A stretch of 64,000 bases of DNA. Origin: Acidihalobacter yilgarnensis (lineage in GTDB: Bacteria; Pseudomonadota; Gammaproteobacteria; DSM-5130; Acidihalobacteraceae). Of this stretch, positions 4,380 through 61,353 are shown piece after piece. The notes below the pieces were generated by a model. That model searched no databases. It was not told the DNA's origin and worked only from the letters and a program-made list of their open reading frames with translations. Each line of letters opens with the position of its first letter. Position 1 is the stretch's first letter. The stretch is from the NCBI RefSeq assembly GCF_001753245.1, contig NZ_CP017415.1:620001-684000 (forward strand), in the 5' to 3' direction. Position numbers and translations under genes: made by a program.

Positions 4380-6203
4380 ATGAAGACGACGGACAGATTG
4401 AATTTGGCGGCGGTACTCAAGGCATTGTCGCGTGAGTCGCGCTTTGAGGATTACTTTCGCAAGGCGGCGGGTGCCGCCGCCAGTTGCTGCGGTGCCGACG
4501 GCGCGGCGCTGATTATGCGTGATGGCGACTCCATGCAATATCGTTTCTTTCTGGGGGTGCCGCAGGCTTTCCGTCAACGTTTCATGGGCTACCGCTATCC
4601 GGCCGATCAAGGTGTATCCGGCGAGGTGCTGCGTACCGGGCGTTATCGCTTCGTGGGTGATTATGCGCACTCGTCAATGGCCATGGAGACCTTCGTTTCT
4701 GCCGGATTGCGGGCCAATCTAGCGGTGCCGGTGCATTGGCCGGATGGCGAGATGGCTGCCGTGCTGGCGGTATCCTGGTTCGGTAGCCGAACCAATCTTC
4801 CTGACCCCGAGGCCCTTGAAACCGTCGAGGCGTTGGCCGGATTGGTCGGGGCGGCACTGCTGCGCGAGGAGATGGAGACTCGCCTACGCGCGCAGGCCCT
4901 GAGCGATTCCCTGACCGGCCTGCCCAATCGCCACGCGTTACCCGAGGTGTTGGAGGGTGCGATGAGCCGGGCGCGGCGCCAAGAGCGCATGCTCAGTGTG
5001 ATCGTGATCGATCTCGATGGCTTCAAGGCGGTGAACGACCGCCTTGGACACCACTTCGGCGATCTCTTGCTCAAGAGCTGCGCTGACCGACTGCGTGAGA
5101 TCGTGCGCCGTGGCGATACCGTGGTGCGGATGGGCGGCGATGAGTTTCTGGTTTTGTCCGAAGGCATTCAGCGCGTCTCGGAGGTTGAAGTATTATGCCG
5201 CCGCATCGATCTGGTCCTGCGCCTGCGTATGACCGTCGATGGGCGGCGCGTGAGCGTGCGTCCGAGTATCGGGGTGGCCATGCTCATGGATGATGAAGGT
5301 GACGTGAATGCATTGATCCACCAAGCCGACATGGCGATGTACAGCGCGAAGAGCGAGGGTGGTGGCTATCGCTTTTACGGCCATGAGATCGACCGTCATC
5401 AGCAGGCACGGCGCGCGATCCGTGAGGCGCTGGAGTCGGCACTGCAGGAAAATGGGCTCGCACTTTACCTACAGCCGATTGTCGATTTGGCGGATGGCCG
5501 TCCAGTGGGCGCTGAGGCTCTGCTGCGTTGGCCGCAGGCGAGCGGTGAGGTGCTTGCTCCCGACAGTTTTCTATGGGCGGTTCACGACGACCCATTGATG
5601 GAGCGTATCGGTCGATGGGTGATTGCGACCGGCGTATCGATATTGCGTGCCTGGCAGAGTGAGTCGGCGCTGGCAGAGATGACGCTTGCGCTGAACGTAT
5701 CGGACTGGGAGCTGCGCAAAAAAGGTTTTTGCGAATCGCTCGATCAGTTGGCCGGAGGCGAACATCCAGTCAATTATGCCCGGCTGCACTTCGAAATCGT
5801 CGAAACCGCATCGCTTAGCGATCGGAAGGAAATCGTCGAGGTACTCACGCAGTGCGCGGCACGCGGGATTTCGGTCTATCTAGACGACTTCGGTACGGGC
5901 TATGCCAGTCTGTCGCATTTGAGCGAAATGCCGGTGAATGGCGTCAAGATCGATCGCCGTTTCGTCGATCAGATTGATCGTGCGAGCCAGAGCCGGAGTC
6001 TGGTTCAGGCCATCATCGGTATGGCCGAGCCCTTCGGGCATGCGGTGGTAGCCGAGGGCATCGAGCGTCCGGAGCAGACCGCATGGCTGCGCCAGCTGGG
6101 CTGCCGATACGGGCAAGGTTACTTATTCGGTCGACCGATGCCGGCGGATGAATTCAGGGCGTGGGTGACCGCCTGGCAAGGTCAGGACGAACTGCCCGCG
6201 TGA
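4380..6203 (+). CDS. GAF-GGDEF-EAL cyclic-di-GMP enzyme
   Basis: A soluble protein of about 607 residues. An N-terminal GAF-like sensor spans residues 15-165. A GGDEF domain follows, with an intact GGDEF motif at 252-256. The EAL domain has the EALLRW motif at about 379, YLDDFGTGYASL near 501 and AEGIE. The GGDEF catalytic signature and the main EAL metal-binding motifs are present, so both synthesis and hydrolysis of c-di-GMP are possible; the net direction cannot be predicted. ATG at 4380 is chosen because AAGG lies 9-12 bases upstream; ATG at 4323 and 4356 are in-frame alternatives with poorer ribosome sites. No membrane segment is seen, so the GAF domain probably reads a cytoplasmic signal. 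Confidence 0.9.
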   Translation: MKTTDRLNLAAVLKALSRESRFEDYFRKAAGAAASCCGADGAALIMRDGDSMQYRFFLGVPQAFRQRFMGYRYPADQGVSGEVLRTGRYRFVGDYAHSSMAMETFVSAGLRANLAVPVHWPDGEMAAVLAVSWFGSRTNLPDPEALETVEALAGLVGAALLREEMETRLRAQALSDSLTGLPNRHALPEVLEGAMSRARRQERMLSVIVIDLDGFKAVNDRLGHHFGDLLLKSCADRLREIVRRGDTVVRMGGDEFLVLSEGIQRVSEVEVLCRRIDLVLRLRMTVDGRRVSVRPSIGVAMLMDDEGDVNALIHQADMAMYSAKSEGGGYRFYGHEIDRHQQARRAIREALESALQENGLALYLQPIVDLADGRPVGAEALLRWPQASGEVLAPDSFLWAVHDDPLMERIGRWVIATGVSILRAWQSESALAEMTLALNVSDWELRKKGFCESLDQLAGGEHPVNYARLHFEIVETASLSDRKEIVEVLTQCAARGISVYLDDFGTGYASLSHLSEMPVNGVKIDRRFVDQIDRASQSRSLVQAIIGMAEPFGHAVVAEGIERPEQTAWLRQLGCRYGQGYLFGRPMPADEFRAWVTAWQGQDELPA

Positions 6204-7105: not shown

Positions 7106-8215
7106 CTAGAAGATGATGACGGACCGGATGCTCTTACCCTCGTGCATCAGGTCGAAGGCGCGGTTGATGTCCTCCAGTGGCATGGTGTGGGTGACCATTT
7201 CGTCGATTTTGATTTCGCCGCTCATGTAGCGCTCGACGTAGCCGGGCAGCTGGCTGCGGCCCTTGACGCCACCGAAGGCAGTCCCCTTCCAGGTGCGGCC
7301 GGTGACGAGCTGGAACGGGCGGGTATGGATTTCCTGGCCGGCGCCGGCGACGCCGATGATGGTGGAGACGCCCCAACCCATGTGGCAACACTCCAGCGCG
7401 TCGCGCATGATTTCAACGTTGCCGATGCACTCGAAGGAGTAGTCGACACCGCCGTTGGTCATTTCCTTGATCGCCTCGGTCACGCCGACGCTCAGCTCCT
7501 TGGGGTTGACGCAGTCGGTGGCGCCGAGTGCGCGGGCCATCTCGAATTTCTCGGGGTTGATGTCGACGGCGATGATGCGCCCAGCCTTGGCCATCACCGC
7601 GCCCTGGATGGCTGATAGGCCGATGCCGCCGAGGCCGAATACGGCCACCGTCGAGCCCGGCTCAACCTTGGCCGTGTTGAGTACGGCGCCGATGCCAGTG
7701 GTGATGCCACAACCCAGCAGGCAGACCTTGTCCAGCGGCGCGGCCTTATTGATCTTGGCCAGCGCGATCTCGGGCACCACGGTGTACTCGGAGAATGTCG
7801 AGCAACCCATGTAATGGAAGATGTCCTGGCCACGCGCTTTGAAACGACGGGTGTGGTCTGGCATGTAGCCACTCCACAGCGTGCCGGCGATGGTCTGGCA
7901 CAGGTTGGTCTTGTCCGACCGGCAGTATTCGCAGTGGCCGCATTCGGGGATGTACAGCGGGATTACGTGGTCGCCGACGGACAGGTTCTTCACGCCGGGG
8001 CCGACCTCGACCACCTCGCATCCGCCCTCGTGGCCGAGAATGCAGGGGAAGGCCCCTTCCGGGTCGTCGCCGGACAGGGTGAAGGCGTCGGTGTGACAGA
8101 CGCCGCTGGCGTGGACCTTGAGGAGCACTTCGCCCTCTCGGGGACCTTCGACTTCGACTTCCTCGATGACGAGGGGTTTGCGGGCTTCCCAGGCGACGGC
8201 GGCTTTGGCTTTCAT
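7106..8215 (-). CDS. frmA: S-(hydroxymethyl)glutathione dehydrogenase, class III alcohol dehydrogenase
   Basis: A 369-residue zinc alcohol dehydrogenase (also called adhC). Features in order: catalytic zinc Cys in [14 protein letters not shown], the four-cysteine structural zinc loop [15 protein letters not shown], a second catalytic-site cysteine in GCGITTG, and the NAD-binding GLGGIG. It oxidises the spontaneous adduct of formaldehyde and glutathione to S-formylglutathione using NAD, and the family also reduces S-nitrosoglutathione. It is the first gene of a two-gene operon with fghA. No FrmR regulator gene is adjacent. The sequence is close to full family identity with no missing ligands. 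Confidence 0.96.
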
Positions 8216-8566
8216 GACGTATCGGTTCCTTGTCGATATGCGGGGCGTCGGCAGCGGCGATCGCGATCTGCTGGCTCGGCTTCAAATCTGCCGACGGAGC
8301 GGGTGATGGGTGTATGGCGAGAATCCCCGTGACGGGGCGGGGTTGGTGCTCGGTCCCCGGTTTTTAATGGCCGGGTAGATGCAATCAAGTGCCGTATTTT
8401 AAGCGGGTTTGTTGAAAATCACCATGTTGGGTATACAGGCGAGGCCTGGTGTCCGTACATGGGGGTGCCGCTAACAATTTGTAATTTATAGCGTTATCTT
8501 GTTAGCGGCATTGCCAATATCGTTATCGTCAAAAGTGATAATCAAATGTATACGAAAAATTCGATA
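8216..8566. other. AT-rich spacer between frmA and mscL, no gene seen
   Basis: About 350 bases without a convincing reading frame on either strand. The half next to frmA is GC-rich and must carry the frmA promoter and leader. The half next to mscL (about 8390-8566) is strikingly AT-rich for this chromosome. It holds the inverted repeat described separately plus repeated CGTTATC/GATAT words such as CGATATCACGATAT. It could contain regulator sites or a small transcript, but I see no specific RNA family. Confidence 0.5.
8466..8510. repeat. 12-bp inverted repeat, 21-base spacer
   Basis: Arms TGCCGCTAACAA (8466-8477) and TTGTTAGCGGCA (8499-8510) are perfect complements. There is no T-run on either side, so it does not look like a simple terminator for mscL, which lies upstream on the minus strand. 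Either a dimeric regulator site or a structured RNA end is possible. Confidence 0.6.
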
Positions 8567-9016
8567 TCACGATATTTCAGACGTGCAGTGTGGACAGCGG
8601 CTGGCCTTGAGGGGAATGTCTGACAGACAGTAGGGGCAGGTTTTGGTGTTGGGCGTCGGTGCGGCCACCTCTTCTTGTCGCTTGAGCCGGTTGATCGAGC
8701 GCACTAGCAGAAAGACGGCAAAGGCGACGATCAGAAAATTGATCACGGTGTTGGCGAACAGGCCAAGATTCAGGGTAACAGCGCCAGCCTTTTGCGCCTC
8801 TACCAGGGATGCATAGGGCCCGACGGTTACACCTTCCTTGAGTACCAGGAACAGATTCGAGAAATCCACATTGCCGAGCATAAGCCCGATCGGCGGCATC
8901 ACAACATCGGTCACCAACGACTTGACGATGGCGCCGAAGGCGGCGCCGATGATGATGCCGACGGCCATGTCGACGACATTGCCGCGCATGGCAAATTCCT
9001 TGAAGGCCTTGAGCAT
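8567..9016 (-). CDS. mscL: Large-conductance mechanosensitive channel with C-terminal zinc ribbon
   Basis: A 149-residue Msc[22 protein letters not shown] is the amphipathic N-terminal helix leading into the pore-lining helix TM1 ([25 protein letters not shown]), and TM2 is [18 protein letters not shown]. The channel opens at high membrane tension to release solutes on osmotic downshock. After the usual C-terminal bundle helix comes an extra C-x2-C...C-x2-C segment (CPYC and CPHC), a small zinc ribbon that Escherichia coli MscL lacks but some relatives carry. ATG at 9016 matches the family start; the in-frame extension upstream has no support. The gene is monocistronic, with an ATP-grasp gene 141 bases upstream on the same strand. 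Confidence 0.93.
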
Positions 9017-9157
9017 GATGTTCCCCCTTATGTCCATTTGAATATCGCGTTTGTGTCGGGCGAATGACCCTTCGCCCAAGCCGACGTCTCCGCTTGAGCG
9101 GGTGTGCCCTGGGTAGGTATAGCAGCCGGTGATGGCTGCGGTGAGCAGGATTTCGGG

Positions 9158-9979
9158 TTAGATCGCGATGGGCAAAATCGGATTGGGGCGGATGGGGTCG
9201 TGAGGTTCGTGATGGTCGGAATATTTGCGCAGATAAGCGAGCATGGCCTCGGCCAGCTGGTCATGCTGTCCGCCGAGTCCTTGATGACCGAACAGGCGGT
9301 TGAATTCAAGCACGTAGGGATGGCCACCGACCATTGCGATATCGAAACCGGCGTGGTCGATACCGAGGGTGTTGGCTAGGAATAAGGCCAATTCCGTAGC
9401 GGCAGCCGGTATTGCAGCATCGCCAATACGCCCGCCGCGGGCGAGATTGTTGTGAAATCCATCGTGCGACTGGAGGCGCCAGAAGGCGCTGACGATTTGC
9501 TCGCCAACGATCACGATGCGTAGATCTCGGTCTATGGGCAGGTATTCCTGCGCATAAATGGTTGGTGTTTTGGCGAGATACGTTTCCCAGTCGCTGTGTG
9601 TTTCGATGAGGAATACGCCCTCGCCCATGCTGCTACGCGGGATCTTGGCGACGAAGGGTGCAACCAGGGAATCCCAGACGCGCGCAGCGCATTCCGGGGT
9701 ATTGGCCTCGATTAGGGTTTCGGGGACGTGATGGGGAGCGATGGCCTGAAAGGCTCGCGTCATTTCGATTTTGTCATGGCCGAGCAGATAGCTTGGCAGG
9801 CTGGGGAATATCCGTTTGTGCAGACCGAAAACCAGCGCGCCGATTTGCCAGTATTCCGGGAACAATATCCAGTCGGCAGCCTCAACCGTCGCGCGCTGCT
9901 GCAGAAAATTTTCAGGCTTGACGTAACGTACGCCGGGGAGTCTGAGGGTTCGGAAGGCATCGAAGGAGACGAGCCGCAT
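9158..9979 (-). CDS. RimK-like ATP-grasp protein
   Basis: A 273-residue protein with ATP-grasp features: a lysine in VAKIPRSSMGEGVFLIE corresponding to the P-loop-like ATP contact, YAQEYLPIDRDLRIVIVGEQIV, LARGGRIGDAAIP, and the metal-binding end AGFDIAMVGGHPYVLEFNRLFG with the E-x-N motif. This resembles the RimK/glutathione synthetase branch, which joins an acyl phosphate to an amine, for example adding amino acids to proteins or small peptides. The substrate is unknown. No ribosomal protein, peptidase or scaffold-peptide gene lies beside it. It is transcribed divergently from the diguanylate cyclase at 10158. Confidence 0.75.
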   Translation of the reverse strand: MRLVSFDAFRTLRLPGVRYVKPENFLQQRATVEAADWILFPEYWQIGALVFGLHKRIFPSLPSYLLGHDKIEMTRAFQAIAPHHVPETLIEANTPECAARVWDSLVAPFVAKIPRSSMGEGVFLIETHSDWETYLAKTPTIYAQEYLPIDRDLRIVIVGEQIVSAFWRLQSHDGFHNNLARGGRIGDAAIPAAATELALFLANTLGIDHAGFDIAMVGGHPYVLEFNRLFGHQGLGGQHDQLAEAMLAYLRKYSDHHEPHDPIRPNPILPIAI

Positions 9980-10157
9980 AAGTCGCCTGCCTGAAGGACC
10001 ATAGGTCCGGTCGATTATACTTGGCGCCGGATTTATAGTGGAATAGGCTCCGATAGCCGTGTTTCGGCATGCGTCACGCGGATGTGATGAATTGAGCGGT
10101 CATGGGTGGGGGCTGCCTGCGCCTGGGCTATACGATGAGCGATCCCTCGAGGTCAGA

Positions 10158-11255
10158 ATGACCCAGAATACAAGCCGCGATGTCGCGCGGGACTTGAGTC
10201 AGAGCGACGAATTCGTCCGGGTCAAGATCAGGTTCATGGACATCGCTGCGTCGATCGGCGTCGTGGTGGCCGTGCTGATGAGCTATGTTGAATTGCGTCA
10301 GGGGCCCTGGTTCCGCGTGGTACCGGCCATGTTGTTCCCGCTGTTCGCGCCCCTGCTTTTGTACCGCCTGCATCGCGGCTATAGAGGATACGAGCAGGCG
10401 GTTACCGGATTTGCCGTGTTGATCAGCGCCCAGCAGATTCTGGGGGCACTGTTCACGCTCAACGATGTGGTTGCGCTTATCTGGTTTCCCGTCTTCCCGT
10501 TGACCTATGTGTTTCTGCTTGGATATGAGCGCGCGCTGCGTTGGAATGCCGCGGTGCTGATCGGTCTGGTCGTGGGCTATCTATTATTCCCTGTGGTGAA
10601 CGAGGGGCTACAGCCGCTTCCACCGATAGCGTTTTGTACCGGTCTGCTGGCCTATGCATTCGCGGCCTTGCTGTCGTGGCAGGATCACAAGGATGTGAGT
10701 GTTTATCAGCGGCGACTTTACGAACAGGCGAGTTACGACGGGCTGACCGGCGCGATGATGCGCGAGCCGGGCATGGAGATATTGGCGCGGTTCATGTCGC
10801 AGGCTGACCGTCAGCCTGCGCAGGCGGTCAGCGTAGCGCTGCTCGACCTTGACGACTTCAAGCGGATCAACGACGAGGAAGGGCACCTGGCGGGCGACCG
10901 CGTGCTGCAGGGGGTGACGGCCGAGGTGCGTGCGCACATCCGTGGGGGCGATTATCTAATCCGTCTAGGCGGCGAGGAATTTCTGATCATATTTCCGGGG
11001 ATGCAGGCGGAGGAGGCCTATGCGCTGTCGGAGACGCTGCGACAGCGCATCCCGGCGGTGACGGACGGTCTGAGCCGTCGGCCGGTGACTACGAGTATTG
11101 GTTTGGCGCAGTACCGTCCGGGGGAGGCACTGGGCCAGTTGCTTGGCCGCGCGGATCATCTGATGTATGCCGCGAAAACAACTGGCAAAAACAAAGTCTG
11201 TGTCGACGAGGGGGCAAACGGCAGCCCGCGTATGGTTTTCGACCCGGTTGCGTGA
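10158..11255 (+). CDS. Membrane diguanylate cyclase, first tandem copy
   Basis: A 365-residue protein with about six hydrophobic segments in residues 30-175, starting MDIAASIGVVVAVLMSYVELR, then a short linker (SVYQRRLYEQ) and a GGDEF domain. The active-site motif is GGEEF at 271-275, which is catalytically competent in the family, so it should make c-di-GMP. No RxxD inhibitory site is obvious five residues ahead. ATG at 10158 is preceded by GAGGTCAG and gives a family-like N-terminus; an upstream TTG/ATG extension in frame looks non-coding. Its C-terminal half is identical in protein sequence to that of the next gene. Confidence 0.9.
   Translation: MTQNTSRDVARDLSQSDEFVRVKIRFMDIAASIGVVVAVLMSYVELRQGPWFRVVPAMLFPLFAPLLLYRLHRGYRGYEQAVTGFAVLISAQQILGALFTLNDVVALIWFPVFPLTYVFLLGYERALRWNAAVLIGLVVGYLLFPVVNEGLQPLPPIAFCTGLLAYAFAALLSWQDHKDVSVYQRRLYEQASYDGLTGAMMREPGMEILARFMSQADRQPAQAVSVALLDLDDFKRINDEEGHLAGDRVLQGVTAEVRAHIRGGDYLIRLGGEEFLIIFPGMQAEEAYALSETLRQRIPAVTDGLSRRPVTTSIGLAQYRPGEALGQLLGRADHLMYAAKTTGKNKVCVDEGANGSPRMVFDPVA
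10696..11201 (+). repeat. 506-bp direct repeat, copy 1, covering a GGDEF domain
   Basis: This stretch matches 11912-12417 with six base differences by my reading, all silent. It starts a few codons before QRRLYEQ and stops shortly before the C-terminus. The flanking DNA on both sides diverges sharply. Confidence 0.9.
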
Positions 11256-11370
11256 GGGAGGACGGCAAGGTCCGTTGGCATGATGACGGCTCGTCGGATG
11301 GCCGATCGTGAGGTTCCCTGTATCGGTGCCTGATGAGAGACAATAACAATACAGATGATGTCGGGGGGGT

Positions 11371-12471
11371 ATGGAAGAGGAGGGCTTGGAACGCGACATC
11401 GCAGGTGAACAGGATCAAAGTCCTACGCTTTTCGGAGAGCGCCTCCCCTTTCTCTACATCGGGGCTCCGCTGGGCGTGCTTGCCTCTCTGGTGATGTTTT
11501 ATATCGAATCGCGCCAAGCTTCCTGGCTGCGAGCATCGTCTGCATTGATGTTTCCTGTGTTCGCGCCGTTGCTGCTGTACTGGATGCATCGTGATCGCAG
11601 TACCTACGAGCATGGTCTGCGCGGCATGGCCTTGCTGATCGTATTGTCGCTGATCAGTGGGGCGTTACTCAATTTCAGCTCTCCGATCCTGCTGATCTGG
11701 ATTCCGGTTATACCGCTGAGTTATGTGCTGCTGCTCGGGCATGCGCGTGCGGTCCGTTGGAATGTGGCGACCCTCCTCGGTTTGATCGTGGCCTATATCC
11801 TATTTCCGGTGATGAATGATGGTGCCCGGCCGGTATCGGTGCTGATTTTCGGCGTCTCACTGCTTGCGGCCAGTGTGTCGATGTTGTTGTCCTGGCATCA
11901 CTACCGTGAGCTGAGTGTTTATCAGCGGCGACTTTACGAGCAGGCGAGTTACGACGGGCTGACCGGCGCGATGATGCGCGAGCCGGGCATGGAGATACTG
12001 GCGCGGTTCATGTCGCAGGCTGACCGTCAACCTGCGCAGGCGGTCAGCGTAGCGCTGCTCGACCTTGACGACTTCAAGCGGATCAACGACGAGGAAGGGC
12101 ACCTGGCGGGCGACCGCGTGCTGCAGGGGGTGACGGCCGAGGTGCGTGCGCACATCCGTGGGGGCGATTATCTGATCCGTCTGGGCGGCGAGGAATTTCT
12201 GATCATATTTCCGGGGATGCAGGCGGAGGAGGCCTATGCGCTGTCGGAGACGCTGCGACAGCGCATCCCGGCGGTGACGGACGGTCTGAGCCGTCGGCCG
12301 GTGACCACGAGTATTGGTTTGGCGCAGTACCGTCCGGGGGAGGCACTGGGCCAGTTGCTTGGCCGCGCGGATCATCTGATGTATGCCGCGAAAACAACTG
12401 GCAAAAACAAAGTCTGTACCGACATGGCGTCCTCGGGTCAGCCGACGGGCGCGACGGAATCCGCGGGCTGA
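11371..12471 (+). CDS. Membrane diguanylate cyclase, second tandem copy
   Basis: A 366-residue paralogue of the preceding gene. Its membrane region (about residues 28-175) is related but clearly diverged: SWLRASSALMFPVFAPLLLY compares with PWFRVVPAMLFPLFAPLLLY. In contrast, the linker and GGDEF domain are identical for about 168 residues, with GGEEF at 272-276. It should synthesise c-di-GMP in response to a different membrane signal. The start ATG at 11371 lies 115 bases after the first copy. The sharp change from diverged to identical sequence indicates recent gene conversion of the catalytic half. Confidence 0.9.
   Translation: MEEEGLERDIAGEQDQSPTLFGERLPFLYIGAPLGVLASLVMFYIESRQASWLRASSALMFPVFAPLLLYWMHRDRSTYEHGLRGMALLIVLSLISGALLNFSSPILLIWIPVIPLSYVLLLGHARAVRWNVATLLGLIVAYILFPVMNDGARPVSVLIFGVSLLAASVSMLLSWHHYRELSVYQRRLYEQASYDGLTGAMMREPGMEILARFMSQADRQPAQAVSVALLDLDDFKRINDEEGHLAGDRVLQGVTAEVRAHIRGGDYLIRLGGEEFLIIFPGMQAEEAYALSETLRQRIPAVTDGLSRRPVTTSIGLAQYRPGEALGQLLGRADHLMYAAKTTGKNKVCTDMASSGQPTGATESAG
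11912..12417 (+). repeat. 506-bp direct repeat, copy 2, covering a GGDEF domain
   Basis: Second copy of the repeat at 10696-11201, at a constant offset of 1216 bases. The six differences I count are all at silent positions (for example TTG/CTG and CAG/CAA), so the encoded residues are identical. Confidence 0.9.
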
Positions 12472-12569
12472 TGCGAGGTATACTCCAAGATAAATAGTGC
12501 GTGATTCGACCTCGGGGGGGACCGCCGTCGATCAGGCAGAGTGGTTTATGGGGGGCGTAGTTGGAGCTG

Positions 12570-15500
12570 ATGAACGGGCCACCAGGTGAATTGGCGCAGC
12601 TGATCCAGGGGCTGGAGCCGATGTTGATGACCGCGAACGACGAGGCGTCTTTGCTCCGCGGCGTGCTGGAGGCGATGTCAATGCATCCGGGCATTGACGG
12701 TGGCTGGATTGGCCACCCTGGCCACGACGGCCAATTTCGCATTGACTGTGCCGTGGGCGCGATGGTTTCCGATTTCCTGGCGCTGGCCGCGCTGCGCATG
12801 GATGACGGTCCGATGGGTTCTGGACCGGCAGGGCTTGCCTGGCGCAGCGGGCAGACGAGCATTGTGACGGATTGGGCCACGGACGCGCGCGCTGAGCCGT
12901 GGCGAGCCTTGCCGCCGGGTTGGGGATCGTCCGTCACCCTGCCGCTACAGGGGGAGATGGGTACGCAGGGGGTTCTCGTACTCTACAGCCGTCGGGCCGA
13001 CACATTCACACCTACTCAGGAGATGTTCCTGACGCATTTCGGACAAATGCTGGGGCTCGCGCTGAGCCGTTGTCGCACCCAAGCTTCGGCACAGGCTTAT
13101 GCCTGCCTCCTCGATGCCATCGTCCGTACCCATGAAGGCATTGATCCGGACGCCGACGAAGCGGCTATAGCCGATCGGTTTGTCGGTATTCTTTACGATT
13201 CCGGTCTGTTTCCGATCCTCTGGGTGGCCCAAGTCGCCGGCGATGGCGACTTGGGCGTGATTGCGGGCAGGGGCGTTACCGATACGATGTCGTCGGTGTA
13301 TCTGGAAGCCAAGCGTGTGGCGGCGGCCAAGGGCGCCACGATGATGATTGATCGCGTCATCGAGAGTGGCCAATCCATGTGGACGGACGACTATCTGCAC
13401 GATCCAGTATTGCAATGGCCAGGGATGCAGGCATGGCGCGAGCATGTCACTGCGATTGGCATGACGCAGATTGCGATGAGTCCGATTTACGTGTCCGGAC
13501 GCCTCTGGGGCGTACTGGTCGCGAACGGTCTGGTTCCGAACGGTACCGGGCAGACGCTGGATTTCAAGCGCCTCCTGCCCCTGCTGGAGCGTGGAGCAGG
13601 TACGTTGGGGACCGCCATCGAGCGTTATGCGCGCGAGCATATCCTGCATGAAACCTTGTCTCGGTTGGATCTTGAATCGCGCGCGATCGCCGCTGCGCAG
13701 CAGGGGATTTCGATCGCCGACATGCGTCAGCCAGGGCAGCCGCTCATTTTCGTCAATCCAGCCTTTACGCAGATCACGGGTTATACCGCGGCGGAAGTCC
13801 TCGGAAACAACGGTCGCTTGCTGCAGAGTAAGGGTACGGATGCGGCCGCGAGACGACGGTTACGGGAGGCGATAACGTCCCGCGAGCCGGTGACAGTGGT
13901 GCTGGAAAATCGTCGCAAGGACGGCACGATTTTCTGGAATGAGGTTTCCCTGTCGCCGGTGATCTCAGAAGGTGGGGAGTTGACGCATTACATTGGTCTG
14001 CAGAGTGACGTCACCGACCGCGTACGGGAGGAAAGTTACCGTCGGCAGATGACGAGTGTGGTCGAGTGCATGCAGGAAGGCATCGTGCTGACCGACGCGG
14101 ATCTGCATATTCTGAACGTCAACCCGGCCTTCACGCAGATAACCGGATATGGCCGAGAGGAGGTGCTGGGCCAGACACCCGCGCTACTGCGCTCGGACCG
14201 CCACGGGCAAGATTTCTATGATGCGATGGCGCTCGAACTGAGCGAGTCGGGATGTTGGCAGGGCGAGATATGGAATCGCCGCCGCAACGGCGAGGTCTAT
14301 CCCGAAATACTGAGCATCAGCGCCGTACGCGATAGTCAGGGCGTGATTCGCCATTACGCCGGTGTGTTTACTGACATCACGGGACTCAAGGAGCGCGAGC
14401 AGGCTCTGCAGCAGGCCGCCACGTGCGATTTTCTCACCGGGCTGCCGAATCGCTTTGCCCTTGACCAGCACCTGGAGGCCTGTTTGCCACGGGCATTACG
14501 CCAGCAGACGCTGCTGGCGATTGGTTTGCTGGATCTGGATGGCTTCAAGGCGATCAACGATACCTACGGCCACGACATCGGTGACATGTTGTTGCGTCAG
14601 CTTGCTGCGCGCCTGCGTCAGATATTGCGTAGTTCGGATTTCCTGGCACGCCTGGGCGGCGACGAGTTCGTGCTGCTGATGGAGGACATTCGCCGCTGGT
14701 CGGATGTCGAATTGCTGCTTGAACGTGTGGGCGCCGTATTTGACGCCCCATTTCGCGTGGGTGAGCACGAGGTCGATATCGGCGCGAGTTTGGGCCTGAC
14801 GCTGTATCCGTTGGATGAATCCAGGCCCCGCGATTTGTTGAGGCATGCGGATCATGCCTTATATGCGGCCAAGGGGCGTGATCGCATCCGTAGTCTGTTT
14901 TATGCCCTGTACGCCTACAACCCAGAGGCCCACGAAACCGCCGAGCACACGAGCGACCCGACCTCCTTGCCGTCGCCTGCCAAGCGTTTGGCCCCACAGG
15001 ATCTGGAGGTTTACTACCAACCCGTATTCGATTTGCCGTCGCAAACGATGAACGGCGTTGAGGCGCTGGCAAGGCTACACCACCGAGAGGGCACTTGGGG
15101 GCCTGACGATTTTCTGTCCCATTTGACGCCGGTGGACGTCCGACGCACCAGCTTCGTGGTGCTCGATCAGGCGCTTGCCCAGTTGCGGCGCTGGGATGAT
15201 GAAGGGCTTTCGCTCGACGTTTCGGTCAATTTCGAGCCACTGGATTTACTGTCGCCAAGTACGGCGCTGGCACTGCAGTCGCGCCTGGAGGCCCACGATG
15301 TCGATCCGGCGCGGTTGACCATCGAAATTATCGACAGTGGCAAAATTTTTGCCGACCGCGCCATGAAGGAGCGCCTGGAAGCCATAAAGGCCCTGGGTGT
15401 CGGGCTCGCGCTCGATGATCTCGGCGGTGTCTACGCCAGTCTCGAGCAACTGCGAGGGCTCCCTTTCGACAGCCTGAAGCTCGATCGTACCTTCGGGATC

Positions 15501-16013
15501 GGCCTTGACCGGCGCCCCAGCGATCTGCGCTTCCTGCTGAGCCTGATCGATCTGGCGCAAAGCCTTGGGGTTTCGCTCGTGGTGGAGGGTATCGACTCGG
15601 CCGAGTCGTTGGCCGCGGTTCAGGCCCTAGGCGTGACCCGTGTGCAAGGCTATTTCCTCGCCCCGCCGATGGCCGGCGAAGGGGTGCCGCGTCTGCGTAC
15701 AGAAGCTTCCGCTGTGCAGGCTTCCGATCCGCTGATCCCGGCCTATGCGGGACACCTGATCTGGGTGCGAGGCTTGCGTAGCCGGTTGCAGGGGGCCGTC
15801 GACGGATGGATGGCGAGCGATGAATCGCCAATGCGATCCGTCGCCGCGCGCTTGCCGGGTTTATGCGGTTTGCTGGATCGTTATCCCCCGTTACTCGCCG
15901 ATACCGCGGCCTCGACGTTGCCTCCGGAGGCCGCGGTATTGCTGATCGATACCGTCGAGCGCGAGATCATGCACACACTGGACAAGTTGTACGAGCCCGT
16001 GGCAGCAGGGTGA
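12570..16013 (+). CDS. GAF-GAF-PAS-PAS-GGDEF-EAL signalling protein with degenerate EAL
   Basis: A protein of about 1147 residues without membrane segments. Domains in order: a GAF-like region (about 15-165), a second GAF-like region (175-350), two PAS domains with paired NPAFTQITGY motifs (about 370-485 and 490-610), a GGDEF domain with intact GGDEF at 696-700, and an EAL domain with EAL at 831-833. The EAL domain is altered at key places: the usual DDFGTG loop reads DDLGGV and the second glutamate of the ExxE motif reads IEIIDS. Hydrolysis may therefore be lost and the domain may only bind c-di-GMP. About 90 residues follow the EAL domain (HLIWVRGLRSRLQG...), probably helical, of unknown type. 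ATG at 12570 is chosen; TTG at 12561 is possible. Confidence 0.88.
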   Translation: MNGPPGELAQLIQGLEPMLMTANDEASLLRGVLEAMSMHPGIDGGWIGHPGHDGQFRIDCAVGAMVSDFLALAALRMDDGPMGSGPAGLAWRSGQTSIVTDWATDARAEPWRALPPGWGSSVTLPLQGEMGTQGVLVLYSRRADTFTPTQEMFLTHFGQMLGLALSRCRTQASAQAYACLLDAIVRTHEGIDPDADEAAIADRFVGILYDSGLFPILWVAQVAGDGDLGVIAGRGVTDTMSSVYLEAKRVAAAKGATMMIDRVIESGQSMWTDDYLHDPVLQWPGMQAWREHVTAIGMTQIAMSPIYVSGRLWGVLVANGLVPNGTGQTLDFKRLLPLLERGAGTLGTAIERYAREHILHETLSRLDLESRAIAAAQQGISIADMRQPGQPLIFVNPAFTQITGYTAAEVLGNNGRLLQSKGTDAAARRRLREAITSREPVTVVLENRRKDGTIFWNEVSLSPVISEGGELTHYIGLQSDVTDRVREESYRRQMTSVVECMQEGIVLTDADLHILNVNPAFTQITGYGREEVLGQTPALLRSDRHGQDFYDAMALELSESGCWQGEIWNRRRNGEVYPEILSISAVRDSQGVIRHYAGVFTDITGLKEREQALQQAATCDFLTGLPNRFALDQHLEACLPRALRQQTLLAIGLLDLDGFKAINDTYGHDIGDMLLRQLAARLRQILRSSDFLARLGGDEFVLLMEDIRRWSDVELLLERVGAVFDAPFRVGEHEVDIGASLGLTLYPLDESRPRDLLRHADHALYAAKGRDRIRSLFYALYAYNPEAHETAEHTSDPTSLPSPAKRLAPQDLEVYYQPVFDLPSQTMNGVEALARLHHREGTWGPDDFLSHLTPVDVRRTSFVVLDQALAQLRRWDDEGLSLDVSVNFEPLDLLSPSTALALQSRLEAHDVDPARLTIEIIDSGKIFADRAMKERLEAIKALGVGLALDDLGGVYASLEQLRGLPFDSLKLDRTFGIGLDRRPSDLRFLLSLIDLAQSLGVSLVVEGIDSAESLAAVQALGVTRVQGYFLAPPMAGEGVPRLRTEASAVQASDPLIPAYAGHLIWVRGLRSRLQGAVDGWMASDESPMRSVAARLPGLCGLLDRYPPLLADTAASTLPPEAAVLLIDTVEREIMHTLDKLYEPVAAG

Positions 16014-22700: not shown

Positions 22701-25397
22701 TTGTCGATTAGAGGGTGGGGTCTGCTTTTGGTTCGTTCGCATCGTCTCGGTTTTGCGCGAACATGAGTTCGTGGGGGGCAGTGGGCGGCTGAAATAGTAG
22801 CCCTGGTACTGATCGCAGTGCTGTTCACGGAGAAAGTCGAGCTGCTGTCGAGTTTCGACACCCTCCGCCACCACGCGGATTTTGAGGCTGTGTGCCATGG
22901 CAATAATCGCCTTGACCAGTGCTTCGTCATCGTGGTCGTTGACCAGATCGCGCACGAAGGATTGGTCGATTTTGAGCTTGTCCACCGGGAACCGTTTGAG
23001 ATAGCTGAGGCTGGAATAGCCGGTGCCGAAATCGTCCAGCGAGAACTCGACGCCCATGTCTTTGAGGCTTTGCAGCATGCGGATGGATGAGTCCAGGTTT
23101 TCCATGATCACGCTTTCGGTGATCTCCATGCCGAGGCGTTGCGGGTCGATGCCGGTGCGCTCGATGATGTGTGTGAAACGCTTGACCAGATCACCCTGCC
23201 GGAACTGCCGCGGCGAGAGGTTGACGACGACACGGCCGGAGAACTGCTTGGTCTTGTCCCATTCGCGGATCTGGCGGCAGGCGGTTTCGAGCACCCATTC
23301 GCCGATCGGCAGGATCAGGGACGAGTCTTCGGCGACCGGGATGAAGCGTGCCGGCGAGACCACACCCATGACCGGGTGGGTCCAGCGCAGCAGCGCCTCG
23401 ACGGCCATGATTTCCCCGCTGGCCAGCGATACGATGGGTTGATAGTGCAGCGATAGTTCGTTGCGTTCGAGCGCTCGCCGCAGATTGTTTTCCAGCATCA
23501 GTCGGTCGGCGGCCTTGGCGTCCATTTCCGGCGAGTAAAAGCGGTAGTTGTTCCGTCCGGAGGCCTTGGCCTGATACATCGCGGTGTCGCTATTCTTGAG
23601 CAGGGCGGTGACGTTGTGTCCGTCCTCCGGGTAGATCGCGATGCCGAGGCTGGCGCCGCTGTGTAATTCGTGGCCTTCGATGGTGTAGGGCTCGGTCAAG
23701 GTGTTGATGATCTTTTGTACCGCCGTGGCGGCATCGTCCGGATGCTCGATGCGCGAGAGGATCACGATGAATTCATCGCCGCCCTGACGCGCGACCGTAT
23801 CTTCTTCGCGCAGACAACCTTTTAGACGGATGGCCACGGAGCGCAGCAGGGTGTCGCCGAGGGTGTGACCCAGCGAGTCGTTGATGGTTTTGAAGTCGTT
23901 GAGATCAATGTAGATCACCGCGAAGCGCTCGCGGCGTCGATGATTGGCGTGTATCGCGTGTTTGATACGATCTTCGAGCAGGGTGCGGTTTGGCAGATCG
24001 GTCAGCGGATCGTGCGAGGCGATGTGCAGGATGCGTGCCTCGGTTTCCTTTCGCCGGGTGATGTCTTGCAGGGCGAGGATGAATTTGTGACGCCCGGCGA
24101 GCACCATGTCGCTGATACGGGCCTCGACGGGCAGTTCCTGTCCATTGCGGCGGATGGCTGTGAGTTCGAAGCTGCTGGGTGGCGTGCCCAGGTCGCGACG
24201 GGCGACGTGGTGCTCGATGCGTTCACGGTACTCGGGATGGTTGCCCGGGTTGATGAGATCGAGCATGTTGCCGCCGAGCAGTCCGCCGGGCGGGTAACCA
24301 AACAATCGCTCGGCTACCGGGTTGAGGGATTCGATGGTGCCATCCTCGGCGAGGGTGATGAGGCCTTCGTCGATGTTGTCGAGTATGGTGCGCGTCCTCG
24401 TTTCGCTATCGCGCAACCGTTCGCTGGCATGGCGCGCTTCACGCTCCGAAATGGCCAGCTTGCGAACCAGCGGATTGACCAGCCAGTAAAGCATCAATAG
24501 TCCGGCGGCGAGGAAGAACAGCAGCATGTAGCTGACCTCGCGCACCTGTTCGTAGATGGGGGCATACAGCTCGTCGGTGTCGACCTTGAGGACCATGCCC
24601 AGGCCTAGTTGGCCTAGCGGAGCATAGGCCGCGACGACCTCGCGGCCGCGGTAGTCTCGGGTCGTGGTGAGCCCGGTTTCACCCTCGAAGGCATAGGCCA
24701 TGGGGAGTCTGCGACCATTTTGCACGAGAGGGACGTCGAGATAGACCCGGCGACTCAGTGCCGCAGGGAAGCATTGCATACCGCTATTGGCATTGCCGCA
24801 GACGACCAGTTCGCCGGTCTTGCCGAGGGTTTGGGTGTCGCGCAACATCCGGGTCAGTTCGGGCAGCCTCGATTCGGTCAGCACGTAGCCGACCAGCCGA
24901 TGTCGGGCATCCAGCATGGGGCGTTCCTGGGAGAGGACGAAGCCGGAATCGCTCCACATCAGGTGTACTGCGGTATCCAGTCGTAGCGGCACGGTCAGTT
25001 CCGGGTGCACGGCGGCAATGCCGGCGGCGGCGGCCGTGTGCCGGTCGGGCATGCTGAACCGTATCAGCGAGAAGCCGGTGGGCAGCAGAGTGTCGGCGGC
25101 GAGCTGCAGTGACTTGATGGCCTTGAAGTCATCGGGGTTTGCGTCCAGTTGCTTGAGCTGCGCGATGATGAAAGGCCGCGTGGCAACCAATTGATTGGCA
25201 TCGAGCCTTTGCTGAATTTTGGCGTCGAACAGGTGGGTGCGGCTTTCAAGAGACAGTAGCAGGCTGCGATTGACGATGCGTTCCGCTTGGTGCTCCATGA
25301 CCAGGAAAATGGAGAGGCTGGCCACCAGCGTCAGGGTGACGAGAATCAGGCCTGCAATAATACTGATGCGACGTTCACGCCGTTTACGGGTGTGCAT
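22695..25397 (-). CDS. Membrane sensor with PAS-GGDEF-EAL domains
   Basis: A 900-residue protein. Residues about 12-33 form a membrane helix, residues 40-270 are a periplasmic Cache-like sensor, and a second helix (EVSYMLLFFLAAGLLMLYWLV) follows near 280. Then come a PAS domain (about 330-450), a GGDEF domain with RQGGDEFIVIL near residue 540 and an EAL domain with VEALLRWTHP near 666, DDFGTGYSSLSYL and AEGVET. The main catalytic motifs of both output domains are present. It should change c-di-GMP levels in response to an extracytoplasmic small molecule. The C-terminal end after FSRPLPP is a short polar tail. It lies upstream of the glutamate-synthase-like gene on the same strand, 79 bases apart. 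Confidence 0.9.
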   Translation of the reverse strand: MHTRKRRERRISIIAGLILVTLTLVASLSIFLVMEHQAERIVNRSLLLSLESRTHLFDAKIQQRLDANQLVATRPFIIAQLKQLDANPDDFKAIKSLQLAADTLLPTGFSLIRFSMPDRHTAAAAGIAAVHPELTVPLRLDTAVHLMWSDSGFVLSQERPMLDARHRLVGYVLTESRLPELTRMLRDTQTLGKTGELVVCGNANSGMQCFPAALSRRVYLDVPLVQNGRRLPMAYAFEGETGLTTTRDYRGREVVAAYAPLGQLGLGMVLKVDTDELYAPIYEQVREVSYMLLFFLAAGLLMLYWLVNPLVRKLAISEREARHASERLRDSETRTRTILDNIDEGLITLAEDGTIESLNPVAERLFGYPPGGLLGGNMLDLINPGNHPEYRERIEHHVARRDLGTPPSSFELTAIRRNGQELPVEARISDMVLAGRHKFILALQDITRRKETEARILHIASHDPLTDLPNRTLLEDRIKHAIHANHRRRERFAVIYIDLNDFKTINDSLGHTLGDTLLRSVAIRLKGCLREEDTVARQGGDEFIVILSRIEHPDDAATAVQKIINTLTEPYTIEGHELHSGASLGIAIYPEDGHNVTALLKNSDTAMYQAKASGRNNYRFYSPEMDAKAADRLMLENNLRRALERNELSLHYQPIVSLASGEIMAVEALLRWTHPVMGVVSPARFIPVAEDSSLILPIGEWVLETACRQIREWDKTKQFSGRVVVNLSPRQFRQGDLVKRFTHIIERTGIDPQRLGMEITESVIMENLDSSIRMLQSLKDMGVEFSLDDFGTGYSSLSYLKRFPVDKLKIDQSFVRDLVNDHDDEALVKAIIAMAHSLKIRVVAEGVETRQQLDFLREQHCDQYQGYYFSRPLPPTNSCSRKTETMRTNQKQTPPSNRQD

Positions 25398-59739: not shown

Positions 59740-61353
59740 ATGACGCGGCAGGTCACGGGACATCCACCGGATAGAGATCGCTGTGCATCCGAGGCGAACT
59801 CGGTCTATACCCTGATCGGCGGTTTCGCCGATGCCCATCTAGAGGCGGACTTCAGGCGCACCCATCTCGGGTGGTTTAACGGTCGCCTGATCACGGCCGG
59901 CTTGCTGGGCGGGATTCTTTACTGCGTCGCGCTGTCCTACGACCACGCGGTGCTGGGCAACTCGCGGGCTTTTCAGTTCTTGCTGGCCGATCGCCTGACA
60001 GTGCTGATCTCGGGCCTTTGGCTCGCGCTCCATGCGTACCGGAACGGCAGGCGTCAGCTCAGTTTGCCGGTCTTCAGCATGCTCGTTTTTGAGCTGATCC
60101 TGGCATCGGGTTTTCTGGGCGTGGTGTTTCTGCACGGTGGTAGCATCGTCTTCCACACGATGAGCATGTTGGCGATCGTCACCGTGTTCTATATTTTCCT
60201 GCCCAACCTATCCACGGGTCAGCTTCTCATCCCTTGGTTGTTTAGCCTGGCCTTCCTGGTCATTTTCCGACTCGTATTCGAAGCAACCTCGATTGAATTG
60301 ACTATCCCGGCCCTGCTATTGCTGCTGAGCAATCTGTTGGGCACCTTCTTTGTCCGTCTGATCAATCGCGGGCAGCGCAGCGAATATGCAACTGTGCAGG
60401 CATTGCAGTTGCTCAATGCGGAATTGCGGCAGGAAATCGCTGATCGCAAGCTCATTGAGGATCGTTTGCGAGCGAGCGAGGACAATCTGCAGCATTTGTT
60501 CGATGTCGCGCCGGTGCCGCTGGTGCTGACCCGAGATCGAGACGGTGCGATTCTGCGCCTTAACCGCGCGGCTTCCTTGCTGCTGCGTGTCGAGGCCGGT
60601 CAGGCCGCGAATCTACGCACGCCGGATTTTTACGTCGATCTGCGCGAGCGTGAGGACGTTATTACCCGGCTGCGTACACAGGGACTGGTCGAGGGCGCGG
60701 ACGTGCATCTACGCACGAACGACGGCAAGCCGATTGAAACCTTGTTGACGGCGGTGCGTACCGAATTCGATGGCGAAACTGTGTATTTCGTCGGGTTGGT
60801 GGATATCAGCGAGCGCAAGCGTATCGAGCGCGAATTGCAGCGACTCGCCAGTACGGATGCGTTGACGGGTCTGCATAACCGTCGCAGTTTCTTTGAGCTG
60901 GCCGAACGTGAAATCAGGCGGGCTCGGCGTAAGCACGCGCCACTGTGTCTGTTGTTGCTGGATGTCGACGAATTCAAACAGATCAACGACCGTTTCGGTC
61001 ACGCGGTGGGCGATAACGCGCTAAACTCGGTCGTTCGCGCGATCAGCGCTTGCCTGCGCGAATATGATATCCCGGCGCGTATCGGTGGCGAGGAGTTCGC
61101 CATCCTGCTGCCTGAAGTGGCGCTCGAGGCTGGGATCGAGGCTGCAGAACGCCTGCGTGAGGCCGTAGCCGCCGCATCGGTAGTAACGCCAGGGGGACCG
61201 ATTACTCTGACCGTGAGCATCGGCGTAGCAGTCGTTGATGGGGATGCCGGGACCATTGATCGTGCCCTCAGTCAGGCAGACGGGGCGCTTTACGAGGCCA
61301 AGCGCGCTGGGCGTAACCGCGTGGCTCAGGCCGGCGACGAGAGGCTGAATTAG
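59740..61353 (+). CDS. Membrane PAS-GGDEF diguanylate cyclase
   Basis: A 537-residue protein. A 7TM-like membrane region (residues about 45-215: LITAGLLGGILYCVALSYDH, VFSMLVFELILASGFLGVVF, IPALLLLLSNLLGTFF) leads through a short coiled linker (LRQEIADRKLIEDRLRASEDN) to a PAS domain (about 245-365) and a GGDEF domain with GGEEF at 449-453. The active site is complete, so c-di-GMP synthesis is expected. The membrane part resembles MASE-type sensor domains but is not assigned to one. ATG at 59740. It is the first gene of a pair with the kinase-HDOD gene 64 bases downstream. Confidence 0.88.
   Translation: MTRQVTGHPPDRDRCASEANSVYTLIGGFADAHLEADFRRTHLGWFNGRLITAGLLGGILYCVALSYDHAVLGNSRAFQFLLADRLTVLISGLWLALHAYRNGRRQLSLPVFSMLVFELILASGFLGVVFLHGGSIVFHTMSMLAIVTVFYIFLPNLSTGQLLIPWLFSLAFLVIFRLVFEATSIELTIPALLLLLSNLLGTFFVRLINRGQRSEYATVQALQLLNAELRQEIADRKLIEDRLRASEDNLQHLFDVAPVPLVLTRDRDGAILRLNRAASLLLRVEAGQAANLRTPDFYVDLREREDVITRLRTQGLVEGADVHLRTNDGKPIETLLTAVRTEFDGETVYFVGLVDISERKRIERELQRLASTDALTGLHNRRSFFELAEREIRRARRKHAPLCLLLLDVDEFKQINDRFGHAVGDNALNSVVRAISACLREYDIPARIGGEEFAILLPEVALEAGIEAAERLREAVAAASVVTPGGPITLTVSIGVAVVDGDAGTIDRALSQADGALYEAKRAGRNRVAQAGDERLN

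Follow-up and report, generated by a model that had tools for sequence, protein, structure and literature searches.

Why do two adjacent diguanylate cyclase genes share an almost identical catalytic half when their sensor halves have diverged? The question is raised by a 64-kb stretch of the Acidihalobacter yilgarnensis genome (hereafter the window), in which two membrane-sensor diguanylate cyclase genes lie in tandem on the forward strand. Gene A (10158–11255, 365 amino acids; GGDEF Pfam match 1e-33) was delimited with the help of the ortholog alignment, its ATG being picked from the ortholog starts (the longest frame begins at 10059). Gene B (11371–12471, 366 amino acids) has its GGDEF match (1.9e-33) at residues 192–347. 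In each gene, a sensor half that is not homogenised (10158–10695 in A, 11371–11911 in B) is followed by a homogenised block (10696–11201 and 11912–12417, respectively) that in gene A comprises the GGDEF domain and the 10 preceding codons.

An earlier note on this DNA claimed that these 506-bp blocks differ at six silent positions and encode identical proteins, and base-by-base comparison bears this out exactly: at an offset of 1216 bp, 500 of 506 bp are identical, and the differences, all silent, fall at 10724, 10782, 10814, 10958, 10967 and 11090 (copy A coordinates). The note also placed a sharp boundary beside QRRLYEQ. The edges are indeed sharp, with mismatches directly outside the block at 10694–10695 and 11202–11203 and an immediate drop to 37% nucleotide identity in the C-terminal tails; however, the 5′ edge lies three codons earlier than proposed, at the Ser of SVYQRRLYEQ. 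The sensor halves are only moderately alike, as the note had it (56.7% identical nucleotides and 43.5% identical amino acids), and silent divergence is far from equal along the genes, with pS of 0.666 in the sensor half, which is near saturation, and 0.048 in the catalytic half. In the matching segment, 176 of the 182 variable sites agree, and its score of 152, against a maximum of 23 over 2000 shuffles of the columns, excludes chance. The two blocks are the sole long direct repeat within the window, and the 3.57-Mb single-contig genome (3,566,941 bp) holds no third copy, the next match being 57 bp at 77%. Inverted repeats flanking the blocks were not found in the window, where the sole reported pair is a near-palindrome internal to both copies, so that an invertible switch was rejected.

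We compared the locus among three Acidihalobacter species, namely the window genome and two relatives, G001 and G002. Both relatives contain this tandem pair as well, with A and B in the same order and adjoining the same gene, a divergent ATP-grasp (RimK-like) gene (9158–9979 on the reverse strand in the window; Pfam RimK 2e-16) that neighbours the pair in all three species and served as the yardstick of vertical divergence. In both, moreover, the catalytic halves are homogenised: across the three species, these halves are 97.6–99.0% identical at the nucleotide level within a genome vs 70.7–79.0% between genomes, with pS of 0.02–0.05 and 0.44–0.60, respectively. The sensors behave in the opposite manner. 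Amino acid identity across species is 59–76% for A–A and 46–56% for B–B comparisons, compared to 35–44% for any A–B pair. In the sensor tree, all A sensors, that of the window included, fall on one side and all B sensors on the other (support 100/100), and a topology that pairs the two sensors of a genome is rejected in all three cases (p = 2.8e-6, 9.6e-5 and 3.8e-58). The catalytic tree, by contrast, pairs the copies by genome, and a tree constrained to group the A copies is worse by 523 log units (AU p = 1.4e-35). Site patterns show the same division: the catalytic half has 154 concerted and no paralog-type sites, the sensor half 17 and 26, respectively.

Given the split of the sensor tree and the synteny in the three species, the duplication predates speciation; the homogenisation has occurred repeatedly. 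Had the gene been duplicated in tandem recently and separately in each species, with one of the two sensors then diverging or being replaced, the catalytic halves would likewise be near-identical in each genome, but we regard this scenario as very unlikely: the sensors group by position across species and not by genome, gene order and the neighbouring gene are the same in all three species, and the same sensor pair would have to be re-acquired three times with almost the same junction. The earlier suggestion of recent gene conversion or domain replacement stands with respect to conversion but not as a single recent event, which is rejected because the three species show homogenisation independently. 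Nor was the catalytic half swept in from outside, since its between-species dS (0.65–1.18) equals that of the ATP-grasp neighbour (0.74–1.16).

Strong purifying selection on the catalytic protein could account for the identity of the two catalytic proteins in the window genome with no recombination involved. This explanation is hardly credible, however, given that the silent sites are homogenised as well (within-genome pS 0.02–0.05), so that constraint on the protein does not suffice as a cause, and that the same domain differs at 29–48 residues between species. Within the tract, amino acid differences between species occupy 45, 29 and 38 columns for the three species pairs, and every one of them, with no exceptions, has changed in A and B alike. 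As a control, a second adjacent GGDEF pair, at one locus of the same genomes (L054–L056), is only ~39–49% identical within genomes and is not homogenised, so that being neighbours is not in itself sufficient. This pair counts to some degree against the conversion model, but it has another architecture and its members have diverged too far to recombine.

Another potential source of near-identical blocks is assembly error, whereby one catalytic block is placed twice. Some grounds for this concern come from G002, where, within the GGDEF block of gene B (L042:7344–7439), a single N joins two contigs and 95 bp are repeated exactly, lengthening the frame by 96 bases; the duplicate was excluded from the codon alignment behind the distances and trees. 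The A/B identity in G002 past column 226 may reflect partial assembly collapse, but even without this genome, the case for conversion stands on the window genome and G001. As a general explanation, an artefact is most improbable, considering that in none of the three genomes are the two copies the same, that each is flanked by unique sequence, and that the pair recurs in G001, which, taken as DSM 14174, was assembled from Illumina reads and from PacBio reads with a mean length of 11.8 kb (PMC5255921) that cover the entire locus. The earlier note's own alternative of an assembly duplication fails on the same facts.

Taken together, these observations make it highly probable that an old tandem duplication was followed by recurrent gene conversion of the catalytic halves, the sensors having become too dissimilar for recombination. 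Under this model, a membrane-sensor diguanylate cyclase was duplicated in tandem before the three species split; the GGDEF halves have since served as templates for each other time and again, through gene conversion between direct repeats ~1.2 kb apart; and the sensors and short C-terminal tails have diverged so far that conversion could not enter them. Changes in the catalytic core would spread to both enzymes, so that the cores would evolve as one unit. The process behind the homogenisation is likely to be non-reciprocal transfer by homologous recombination, presumably of the RecA type.

The extent of the tracts fits this model. Their boundaries nearly coincide among the three species, running over codon columns 210–377, 219–377 and 218–378, and match the limits of the Pfam GGDEF domain. 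The longest exact shared runs are 143–458 bp inside the tract vs 10–15 bp in the sensors, where A–B nucleotide identity is 51–57% across the genomes. Homologous recombination usually needs a few tens of bases of identity. Because the exact runs in the sensors are shorter than that, the limits of the tract can be explained without any special signal, and sensor divergence would be what confines conversion. Mosaic tracts were detected as well. At the junction in the window genome, an A-type Tyr (column 217) is found in gene B and a B-type Val (column 211) in gene A. In G001, a cluster of four silent differences occupies no more than 7 codons at the 3′ end of the tract (P = 1.4e-4). These traces point to several conversion events per lineage. 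As a rough estimate, assuming an equilibrium between conversion and mutation, a mean within-genome pS of ~0.04 would imply a per-site conversion rate about fifty times that of silent substitution.

The same repeat could, as suggested previously, recombine to delete 1216 bp and create a chimaeric gene. Such an event is plausible, but the deleted form is absent from all three genomes. Because both genes persist in all three species even though a single crossover within the ~500-bp direct repeat could delete one of them, both inputs are probably useful and maintained by selection. The notion of one catalytic unit behind two input modules is thus apt as a description of the outcome; that this arrangement is itself selected, or is a route to new inputs, would be a further step.

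A related possibility, which adds to gene conversion and does not replace it, is that selection acts on the very identity of the catalytic halves, through mixed dimers or a common partner, with conversion as the means of maintenance. GGDEF enzymes work as dimers. Furthermore, the genes are adjacent and co-directional, with a 4-bp overlap in G001, every species shows the homogenisation, and the tracts coincide with the domain. Nevertheless, plain homology-dependent conversion predicts the same pattern, and we consider selection for identity unlikely, if worth keeping in view. More doubtful still is the specific version in which the two proteins would be interchangeable halves of mixed dimers and conversion would maintain a two-input c-di-GMP sensor. 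Between A and B, we found no sigma-70-like promoter site, a result that is not informative for this organism.

With regard to function, all six proteins from the three species carry the GGEEF active-site motif and, five residues ahead of it, an RxxD inhibitory site (RGGD, RQGD and RRGD across the three species). With these motifs intact, A and B are GGDEF diguanylate cyclases predicted to make c-di-GMP. In the structure models (mean pLDDT ~72, moderate), six membrane-type helices are predicted, also specifically in the sensor half of gene B, and the last of these continues into the GGDEF domain. The best Foldseek match of the sensor is ImcA (PDB 8wcn; prob 0.90, TMq 0.61, E 0.92), which is not significant; the sensor has neither a significant fold match nor a Pfam family above cut-off. 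Membership in MASE6 (PF20966) was rejected: only one of the six members gave a match, at 20.3 bits vs the Pfam cut-off of 27.4, and the two proteins of the window gave none. A scan of genome contigs returned only a distant GGDEF match, and outside the genus the sensor profile gave no hit among 369 genomes of the class or in two genomes of the sister genus. The sensors resemble those of integral-membrane diguanylate cyclases, such as ImcA of Pseudomonas aeruginosa and the MASE-type enzymes, in having a multi-helix membrane bundle with a long helix leading into GGDEF, but differ in that the match is weak and below the MASE6 cut-off, and in that this sensor was found in this genus only. Between species, the sensor of gene B evolves faster than that of gene A (dN 0.37–0.47 vs 0.16–0.30).

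Domain-limited concerted evolution is already known, and the A/B pair, in which the paralogs within a genome are closest in one domain only, the duplication antedates speciation and silent sites are homogenised, is an unusually clean new case. Its closest precedent is mtrA-1/mtrA-2 of Methanococcales and Methanomicrobiales, tandem paralogs that similarly stem from an old duplication and in which long-lasting conversion in each lineage homogenised the soluble domain, whereas the transmembrane part remained distinct (PMC4632066). However, mtrA encodes an archaeal methanogenesis enzyme, and its second membrane part arose via gene fusion and domain shuffling (PMC4632066); the A/B sensors are homologues of each other that diverged in situ, and the enzymes function in c-di-GMP signalling. 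More broadly, long-lasting concerted evolution has been described for 26 prokaryotic genes, most of which encode members of stable complexes; there, as in A/B, paralogs are closer within than between species, at silent sites too, and the pattern was ascribed to recurrent gene conversion (PMC6053082). The text of that study includes neither GGDEF nor signal transduction, and the A/B pattern differs in being limited to one domain and one genus. Our literature search found no paper on gene conversion of GGDEF proteins or c-di-GMP enzymes, and none linking chemoreceptors, gene conversion and concerted evolution. The pair provides a clean natural example of one enzyme core kept current while two input sensors diverge, and raises a testable question, namely whether the shared core is a by-product of recombination or is needed for the two sensors to act together. 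It also implies that duplications of c-di-GMP enzymes can be badly misdated when only the GGDEF domain is used for the tree.

Several minor observations pertain to the blocks and their surroundings. At five of the six silent differences (window 10724–11090 vs 11940–12306), copy A has A/T and copy B has G/C, and for the four that could be polarised by the relatives, copy A is the changed copy each time; with such small numbers, this bias may be due to chance or to differing codon selection. The c-di-GMP network of this organism is rich, with 48 GGDEF-type matches genome-wide in 3.57 Mb; further GGDEF domains in the window are located at 4875–5360 (+), 14397–14879 (+), 23547–24104 (−) and 60790–61326 (+). 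The mscL channel gene (8567–9079, reverse strand) adjoins the locus in the window; tblastn gave no match to it in the 15-kb pair-bearing stretches of both relatives, in which adhC and the ATP-grasp gene are kept. Downstream of the pair lies a GAF-PAS-PAS-GGDEF-EAL gene (12561–16013), the ortholog of which is split in G002 (L042:8049–13053): codons 4–71 are found at 8049–8252, the part from codon 97 on begins at 9925, and ~1.7 kb of sequence without a match separates the two.
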